DNA of 64,000 nt from Comamonadaceae bacterium (lineage in GTDB: Bacteria > Pseudomonadota > Gammaproteobacteria > Burkholderiales > Burkholderiaceae_C). The position numbers and the translations under genes were made by a program. Positions 7,557-10,908 of the stretch are shown one piece after another (within the stretch, counting starts at the first letter, position 1; each line of letters opens with the position of its first letter). The notes under the pieces were generated by a model. The model searched no databases. It saw only the letters and a program-made list of their open reading frames with translations, and was not told the origin of the DNA. The stretch covers positions 20,327-84,326 of the forward strand of contig JAAFIY010000003.1 in NCBI GenBank assembly GCA_013297985.1. The letters run 5' to 3'.

Positions 7557-8696
7557 TTAGTGCGTCAAAACGATGCGCAGCATGCGGCGCAGCGGCTCGG
7601 CAGCGCCCCACAAAAGCTGGTCGCCAATGGTGAAAGCGCCCAGGTACTCGGGCCCCATGGCCATCTTGCGCAGGCGGCCCACCGGAATGCCCAAGGTGCC
7701 AGTGACAGCCACCGGGGTGAGGTGTTGCAGGGTGGCTTCGCGGGTGTTGGGCACCACTTTCACCCAGGCGTTATCGGCAGCGATCATGGCTTCGATATCG
7801 GCCATCGGCACGTTCTGCTTGAGCTTGAAGGTCAGCGCCTGGCTGTGGCAGCGCATGGCGCCAATGCGCACGCAAAAGCCGTCTACTGGCACGCCTGCCG
7901 TGCCAAAACCTTCGCCCTGGCCCAAGATTTTGTTGGTCTCGGCGCCGCCTTTCCATTCTTCGCGGCTGACGCCATTGCCCAGATCTTTGTCGATCCAGGG
8001 GATAAGTGAGCCGCCCAGCGGCACGCCGAAGTTGGCGGTTTCATCCGCCGACATGGCTTGCTGGCGCTGCAGCACCAGGCGATCAATCTCAAGAATGGCG
8101 CTTTTGGGGTCGTCCAGCAGGGGCCGCACCTGAGCGTTTAGGCTGCCGTATTGGGTGAGCAGTTCGCGCATGTGCTGGGCGCCGCCACCCGACGCCGCTT
8201 GGTAGGTCATGGTGCTCATCCATTCCACCAAACCCGCCTTGAACAGGGCGCCCACGCCCATCAGCATGCAGCTCACCGTGCAGTTGCCGCCAATCCAGTT
8301 GCGCCCGCCCTTGGCCAATGCGTTTTGAATCACCGGCAGGTTGACGGGGTCCAAGATGATGACCGCGTCGTCCTTCATGCGCAGGGTGCTGGCGGCGTCA
8401 ATCCAATGGCCGTTCCAGCCTGCGGCACGCAGTTTGGGGAAGACTTCGGTGGTGTAGTCGCCGCCCTGCGCGGTGATGATGATGTCGCAGCGCTTGAGGG
8501 CCGCCACATCGTGCGCATCGAGCAGTTTGGTTTCGTTTTTGGCCATGGCCGGGGCGGCACCACCAGCATTGCTGGTGCTGAAAAACAGCGGCTCGATCAG
8601 CTCAAAGTCGCCTTCGGCTTGCATGCGATCCATGAGGACGCTGCCGACCATGCCTCGCCAGCCAACGAGGCCCACACGATTAGATTTGCTGCTCAT
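7557..8696 (-). CDS. asd: Aspartate-semialdehyde dehydrogenase
   Basis: [51 protein letters not shown] at 8696 chosen. Confidence 0.95.
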
Positions 8697-8718
8697 TTGA
8701 AAAGACACCCTCTTTTAG

Positions 8719-8746
8719 AAAAAACAAACAGGAATCGACCTGCCTG
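8719..8746 (-). terminator. Terminator-like hairpin between leader ORF and asd
   Basis: Minus strand CAGGCAGG-TCGATT-CCTGTTTG (8 bp, two G-U) followed by TTTTTT. Confidence 0.5.
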
Positions 8747-8753
8747 CCTTCGG

Positions 8754-8793
8754 CCCGGCTCGTCTGGCCGGGGAGGGCGCACGACGAACCAGG
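8754..8793 (-). promoter_or_regulatory. Competing hairpins in the asd leader
   Basis: CCTGGTTCGTC (8793-8783) can pair with GACGAGCCGGG (8764-8754), 11 bp with two G-U; CCCGGC (8772-8767) can pair with GCCGGG (8759-8754). Both use 8754-8759, so they are mutually exclusive. Confidence 0.5.
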
Positions 8794-8799
8794 CTTTGG

Positions 8800-8898
8800 C
8801 TAGCCCTTAATGGTGGTCGTGGTTTTGGTGGTGCGCGCGCAGGCGGCCGCGAGCGCAAAGGCGGCGGTGTTCAAGGCGAACGTGGCTTGCGTGGGCAT
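8800..8898 (-). CDS. Putative Thr-rich leader peptide upstream of asd (MPTQATFALNTAAFALAAACARTTKTTTTIKG)
   Basis: 32-codon ORF; last codons ACC ACC AAA ACC ACG ACC ACC ATT AAG GGC TAG; TAAAAT -10-like box 7 nt before the ATG. Confidence 0.5.
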   Translation of the reverse strand: MPTQATFALNTAAFALAAACARTTKTTTTIKG

Positions 8899-8971
8899 GG
8901 CCCAGATTTTAGCCGCAGTGCGACTGGGCCCCAGCTGACTCCAGCGCTGGGGCGCGGTCGCGGGCGCGGGC

Positions 8972-10054
8972 TCAGGCCAGGGCCGCCACCACCGCGTCCC
9001 CCATTTGCGCCGTGCCCACGCGGGTGCTGCCTTCGCTGTAGATGTCGGCCGTGCGCAGGCCTTGGGCCAGCACGGTTTGCACAGCGGCTTCAATGCGGTC
9101 GGCGGCCTCGGGCAAGTTCAGGCTAAAGCGCAGCATCATGGCGGCGCTCAGAATGGTGGCCAGCGGGTTGGCGATGCCCTTGCCCGCAATGTCGGGCGCA
9201 CTGCCGTGGCTGGGCTCATACAGGCCCTGGTTGCTGGCGTTCAAGCTGGCGCTAGGCAGCATGCCGATGCTGCCTGTCAGCATGGCGGCCTCGTCGCTCA
9301 AGATGTCGCCAAACATATTGCCGGTGACGAGCACGTCAAACTTTTTGGGCGCCTTCACCAACTGCATGGCGGCGTTGTCCACATACATGTGGTCTAGCTC
9401 GACGTCGGGGTATTGCTGGCCTACTTCAGTGACGATGTCTTTCCAAAACTGAAAGGTCTCCAGCACGTTGGCCTTGTCCACGCTGGTCACCCGCTTGCTG
9501 CGTTTGCGCGCCGCTTGAAAGGCCACATGCGCGATGCGTTCCACCTCGGGGCGGCTGTAGCGCATGGTGTCAAAGGCCTCGGGGGCGCCGGGAAAATGGC
9601 CGTCAACCGCTGTGCGGCGGCCGCGGGGCTGGCCAAAGTAGATGTCGCCCGTCAGCTCACGAATGATGAGGATATCCAGCCCGGCAATCAGCTCAGGCTT
9701 CAGGCTGCTGGCGCCCACCAGTTGCGGATAGCAAATGGCGGGGCGAAAGTTGGCGAACAGGCCCAGCTCGCGGCGCAAACCCAAGATGGCTTGCTCGGGG
9801 CGCAGGGGGCGGTCGAGCTTGTCGTATTTCCAATCACCCACGGCGCCAAACAGCACGGCGTCGGCTTGCTTGGCCAGCGCCAAGGTAGCGGGCGGCAGCG
9901 GGTGGCCGTGCAGTTCATAAGCGGCACCGCCCACTGGGGCGGTGTCGAGTTGCAGCGGCAGCTTCAGGGCGTGCAGCACCTTGATGGCTTCGGCCACGAT
10001 TTCGGTGCCGATGCCGTCACCCGGCAAGACAGCAATGCGGTGTGTTTTGCTCAT
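8972..10054 (-). CDS. leuB: 3-isopropylmalate dehydrogenase
   Basis: [39 protein letters not shown]; adjacent leuD/leuC. Confidence 0.96.
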
Positions 10055-10104
10055 TTTTTTATAGCTACTTCGGCCCATGAATAGGGCGCAAACGCCCAAA
10101 AAGA
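10047..10104 (+). repeat. Dispersed palindromic repeat spanning the leuB start codon
   Basis: TTGCTCATTTTTTTATAGCTACTTCGGCCCATGAATAGGGCGCAAACGCCC. Confidence 0.7.
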
Positions 10105-10776: not shown

Positions 10777-10908
10777 TTAGCGTCGGCCTGCGTCTTCAAT
10801 TTTTTGGCCACCGCGCTGGATGTCTTTGCCCAAGCCGGCCACCGTGTTACAGCCCGCCAGCCCAATCAGCACGGCGGCGACGGCGACAAAGCGAATGAGT
10901 GTGTTCAT
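10777..10908 (-). CDS. Entericidin A/B-like small lipoprotein (43 aa)
   Basis: Reverse translation MNTLIRFVAVAAVLIGLAGCNTVAGLGKDIQRGGQKIEDAGRR; lipobox LAGC; below the ORF-track length cutoff. Confidence 0.88.
   Translation of the reverse strand: MNTLIRFVAVAAVLIGLAGCNTVAGLGKDIQRGGQKIEDAGRR

Follow-up and report, generated by a model that had tools for sequence, protein, structure and literature searches.

Aspartate-semialdehyde dehydrogenase (Asd) stands at the entry to threonine, lysine, methionine and isoleucine synthesis. The leader of the enterobacterial thr operon (thrL; Rfam Thr_leader) encodes a peptide rich in Thr and Ile codons and forms mutually exclusive stems ahead of an aspartate-family gene. 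In translational attenuators of the erm/cat type, the stalling of a ribosome within the leader releases the ribosome-binding site (RBS) of the next gene, and what is sensed is an antibiotic. The leader mRNA of the Sinorhizobium meliloti trpLE attenuator begins with the leader ATG (PMC7298713), and the ilvBNC attenuator of Corynebacterium, which serves branched-chain amino acid genes, has a leaderless leader peptide (PMC11857589, PMC10272879). Ahead of leuA in actinobacteria, the LEU element forms a pseudoknot in which its own run of codons base-pairs with the Shine-Dalgarno sequence; mutations of these codons were reported to have no effect on regulation (PMC1262725).

We describe here an element upstream of asd in a Comamonadaceae bacterium and its relatives. 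Like thrL, it combines a Thr/Ile-rich leader with stems that exclude each other and lies ahead of an aspartate-family gene, but it differs from thrL in that it has no Rfam match, would control asd, adds Lys codons, lacks a conserved terminator, is predicted to act by sequestration of the RBS and has a leader that is either probably leaderless or embedded in LeuB. With trpLE it shares a predicted mRNA start at the leader ATG, whereas trpLE is a transcription attenuator responding to Trp in Alphaproteobacteria; ilvBNC differs by its transcription terminator hairpin, its gene and its phylum. In the LEU element the codon run contacts the Shine-Dalgarno sequence, whereas here a segment located after the stop codon (X, below) would do so. 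Release of the RBS by stalling would be common to this element and the erm/cat type, but the latter respond to antibiotics and not to charged tRNA. The preliminary description of this locus knew of no Thr leader for a betaproteobacterial asd. A search of the open-access literature found no comparable attenuator of asd described, asd is not mentioned in a 2010 survey of premature terminators, and no family of Rfam 15, the thr leader family included, gave a covariance-model match above its gathering score.

The leader and its conservation

The sequence studied is a 64 kb stretch (hereafter the window), in which all parts of the switch lie on the minus strand. Downstream of leuB (8972-10099) and upstream of asd (7557-8696, ATG at 8696-8694), the putative controlled gene, we found the 32-codon ORF rich in Thr, Lys and Ile codons that had been proposed for the leuB-asd gap. 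It spans 8800-8898 (sense codons 8898-8803, TAG at 8802-8800) and encodes MPTQATFALNTAAFALAAACARTTKTTTTIKG, whose C-terminus, RTTKTTTTIKG, contains the sensing codons ACC ACC AAA ACC ACG ACC ACC ATT AAG (8806-8832). Runs of Thr codons are not rare in this DNA: when both strands and all frames are read, 12-codon stretches with 6 or more Thr codons occur 10 times in the 64 kb. The case for a leader therefore rests on conservation. Elsewhere in the same region, a 43-aa entericidin-like lipoprotein ORF lies between leuC and leuD (10777-10908, minus strand).

Asd-like proteins were present in 60 of the 61 genomes searched, 57 of them close. We assembled 110 asd loci with their upstream region, 30 from whole genomes and 80 with organism names, the latter from Comamonadaceae and Sphaerotilaceae (for example Variovorax, Acidovorax, Polaromonas, Ramlibacter, Rubrivivax and Ideonella). 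The alignment of the leuB-asd gaps of relatives, which had been suggested as a check, revealed a Thr/Ile/Lys-rich tail directly before the RNA element in 94 of the 110 loci and its absence from the other 16, and both stems described below covary. Among 92 relatives, the last ten codons of the tail are 38% Thr, 20% Lys and 18% Ile, a sum of 76%, compared with about 6% each and a sum of 18% in Asd. Some tails carry a Met codon in place of a Thr codon (ITTMTKTIKS, ATMTKTIKG; L006, L015, L095, L003); Met is also an end product of Asd. At several loci (L019, L028, L062, L074, L080, L099-L102), asd lies directly 3' of leuB without leader or switch, apparently through scattered losses or as states that precede the gain.

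A covariance model of the element, built on the relatives and the window, matches the window copy at E = 1.4e-17 while the next best match in the whole genome has E = 0.135, indicating that the element is more than a chance resemblance. In the window's family, 321 of 401 genomes (∼80%) contain a match, nearly always a single one, and 122 of 141 genera are represented; about 146 further genomes of the order outside this family gave none. Second matches of the model in 12 genomes (L154-L165) fall within unrelated coding sequence that has no leader of this type; they were discarded as noise, and we claim no wider regulon.

Switch stems and ribosome position

Two mutually exclusive stems with 8754-8759 in common had been drawn after the leader stop codon. 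Both are present, and both covary in 88 relatives. Arm A (GCCTGGTTCGTC, 8783-8794) pairs with arm C (GACGAGCCGGGC, 8753-8764) in the ON state, as 8794-8783 with 8764-8753, and arm B (CCCCGGCC, 8766-8773) pairs with C in the OFF state, as 8772-8767 with 8759-8754 in the window; C can pair with A or with B, never with both. In a control that shuffles the alignment but leaves relatedness in, stem A:C reaches 11 two-sided covarying cells against 2.6 in the shuffles and stem B:C 11 against 2.1, with none of 500 shuffles as high in either case, and the same columns paired out of register give far lower scores. In one column, a G to A change in C is matched by a change to U in both A and B. The consensus after the stop codon reads AGCC(C/T)GGTTCGTC-N-GCGCCC-n-CCCGGC-n-GACGAGCCGGG. 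Some fused lineages, those with a leader embedded in LeuB (below), have a B arm that continues as a long helix formed with sequence further downstream (ACAAACCC/GGGTTTGT or GGACCCC/GGGGTCC; L003, L018, L023, L073, L096 and L010, L031, L032, L049, L054, L075, L105), perhaps a different OFF geometry.

We assessed the dependence of stem choice on the ribosome by folding, for 88 loci, only the RNA downstream of a simulated ribosome, as would happen during transcription. With the ribosome paused at the Thr codons, the probability of A:C is 0.98 and that of B:C 0.01, and A:C exceeds 0.5 in 86 of the 88 loci. As the first free base moves past the start of the stop codon, the probability of A:C falls to 0.80 at 10 nt, 0.29 at 13 nt and 0.06 at 15 nt, where B:C reaches 0.77. 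The threshold for the loss of A:C is crossed as the ribosome leaves the last sense codon and advances by a few bases. The window itself forms A:C with a probability of about 1 when the ribosome is upstream and changes stem between 13 and 16 nt (B:C 0.75 at +15 and 0.96 at +17). The outcome depends on the footprint assumed: at a minimal +13, the window keeps A:C (0.98) and only 49 of the 88 loci switch. In equilibrium folds of the full-length RNA, accessibility of the Shine-Dalgarno sequence differs little between ON and OFF (26 loci up, 13 down), a weak contrast implying that the model needs co-transcriptional trapping.

Predicted output at the asd ribosome-binding site

Complementarity between the 5' arm of stem A:C together with its CGCCC flank and the asd Shine-Dalgarno sequence and start codon is conserved. 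This anti-RBS segment, X (TCGTCGTGCGCCCTC, 8773-8787), is complementary to the Shine-Dalgarno sequence and often to the start codon as well; in the window, the Shine-Dalgarno region AGAGGGTG (8706-8713) is complementary to GCGCCCTC (8773-8780), and the OFF fold consists of B:C, a third hairpin and GCGCCCTC paired with GAGGGTGT. The duplex of X with the asd RBS has a mean energy of -12.7 kcal/mol compared with -5.0 for the leuB RBS of the same loci, and is the better one in 64 of 67 (p 2.5e-12); against shuffled sequences, the means are -13.0 and about -8.5 kcal/mol (p about 1e-15). Comparison of own with swapped loci revealed no locus specificity of the pairing (p 0.14), which leaves this evidence below the level of proof given by covariation. 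In a Roseateles/Rubrivivax-like group (for example L003, L073, L096), the anti-Shine-Dalgarno match looks weak. From these energies and folds, one of the two states would sequester the asd RBS, as in translational attenuators.

The third hairpin bears on an alternative output, classical transcription attenuation, in which the same leader and the same arms A, B and C would lead to intrinsic termination at this hairpin and its U tract. The preliminary description had the hairpin as a terminator, and the structure does exist in the window: eight base pairs, CAGGCAGG/CCTGTTTG, at 8720-8751, followed by U6 (U tract 8718-8725). Some relatives, L039 and L103 among them, also have stems of the AAACAGT...ACTGTTT kind with U-rich tails. 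The terminator function fared differently. A strict terminator test is passed in 2 of the 88 relatives, a run of at least five T occurs in 27 of the 88, and a terminator scan of the window region found no terminator-like site. In addition, the hairpin has no overlap with A, B or C, which puts it beyond the reach of the switch, and no U tract follows B:C. Termination at this hairpin is thus an unlikely output. A hairpin is found at this place in 58 of the 88 loci with a variable sequence; its frequent presence, this variability and the usual lack of a terminator tail suggest that this helix is probably a spacer placing X next to the RBS.

A second alternative keeps the whole switch and takes closure of the RBS as a trigger, the OFF state acting mainly through Rho-dependent termination or mRNA decay within untranslated asd. 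Closure of the RBS is the conserved output and untranslated mRNA is a general target of Rho and RNases, both of which speak for this route; as the main mode of action we nevertheless regard it as improbable.

Free and LeuB-embedded leaders

The tail belongs to a free ORF of 11-38 codons in 44 loci. A -10-like hexamer, in most cases TACAAT, lies 6-11 nt before the start of each of these 44 free-standing leaders; in the window, the predicted hexamer is TAAAAT (8906-8911), 7 nt before the leader ATG. A TANAAT motif 5-11 nt upstream is found at 42 ATGs of these loci, all 42 of them leader starts, and at none of the other 3234 ATGs. No site near the leader was returned by a sigma-70 scan that requires a -35 box. 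Given this placement, and assuming that transcription starts about 7 nt after the -10 hexamer, the free leaders are probably translated from leaderless or near-leaderless mRNAs.

In 50 loci, or about half of the relatives examined, LeuB itself ends in the tail (for example GDAVVAAITTTTKTIKS). Within leuB, the codons GCT ACA, which create TACAAT, occur in 49 of these 50 fused loci and in none of 49 loci without the fusion, and both codons are rare in the asd genes of the same genomes (GCT is 5% of Ala codons, ACA 3.5% of Thr codons). This is good evidence that in the fused loci a short transcript, with a predicted start just after GCTACAAT, runs from a promoter inside leuB into the same leader. 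The Asd tree has too few resolved branches to order the two architectures, and its well-supported branches require that the fused state changed three times or more. The LeuB-embedded leader is the most unusual feature of the attenuator.

Discussion

Taken as a whole, Thr/Lys/Ile-sensing, ribosome-dependent attenuation of asd is strongly supported by comparison of sequences. Most likely, the element is a real, family-wide, ribosome-dependent attenuator of asd that acts on translation, and we consider it likely that what is sensed is charged tRNA for Thr, Ile and Lys. The earlier proposal of an attenuator thus holds for the sensing switch, which is borne out by conservation and covariation, and gives way for the output: pairing with the asd RBS and start codon, and not a terminator, is what is conserved. 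The reading draws on conservation of the tail, covariation in both stems, the complementarity between X and the RBS and placement of the -10 hexamer, from which we infer the start of transcription, the stalling of ribosomes and the direction and size of the response.

In the proposed mechanism, the leader transcript would start at or near the leader ATG. Under a shortage of Thr, Ile or Lys, the ribosome would stall inside the tail and leave A free to pair with C as soon as C is made; A:C would hide X, and the asd RBS would be open (ON). When the three amino acids are plentiful, the ribosome would reach the stop codon and cover the 5' half of A, allowing B:C to form; B:C would free X (TCGTC...GCGCCC), which would then pair with the asd Shine-Dalgarno sequence and start codon across the junction with the third hairpin (OFF). 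In the fused loci, translation of LeuB would itself be the sensor, and ribosomes on the full leu transcript would traverse the same LeuB tail. It is on balance probable that the translational attenuator is family-wide with a leader that is often the C-terminal tail of LeuB, for which a promoter within leuB provides additional expression, and that evolution has repeatedly turned the sensor from a free leaderless ORF into the tail of an enzyme or the reverse.

A rival reading gives the function to the proteins: the ORF would encode a small protein with a role of its own, the tail would serve LeuB, and the RNA would fold incidentally or so as to bind a protein or ligand. This is very hard to credit: the N-terminus MFAARPF is common to Acidovorax/Hydrogenophaga-like leaders, but the Thr/Ile/Lys tail is the only part common to all, alternates between a free ORF and the LeuB C-terminus, ends a short and fairly fixed distance before arm A and matches the end products of Asd in composition.

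A single unannotated RNA element would explain how entry into the aspartate pathway is controlled outside enterobacteria, in a whole family of environmental bacteria. It would add closure of the RBS to attenuation by amino-acid leaders, and a leaderless leader in betaproteobacteria. In the fused loci, a metabolic enzyme seems to have kept its tail for the pausing of the ribosome that translates it and not for the protein, a warning that the C-termini of leuB and the 'intergenic' asd leaders of these genomes may be regulatory.
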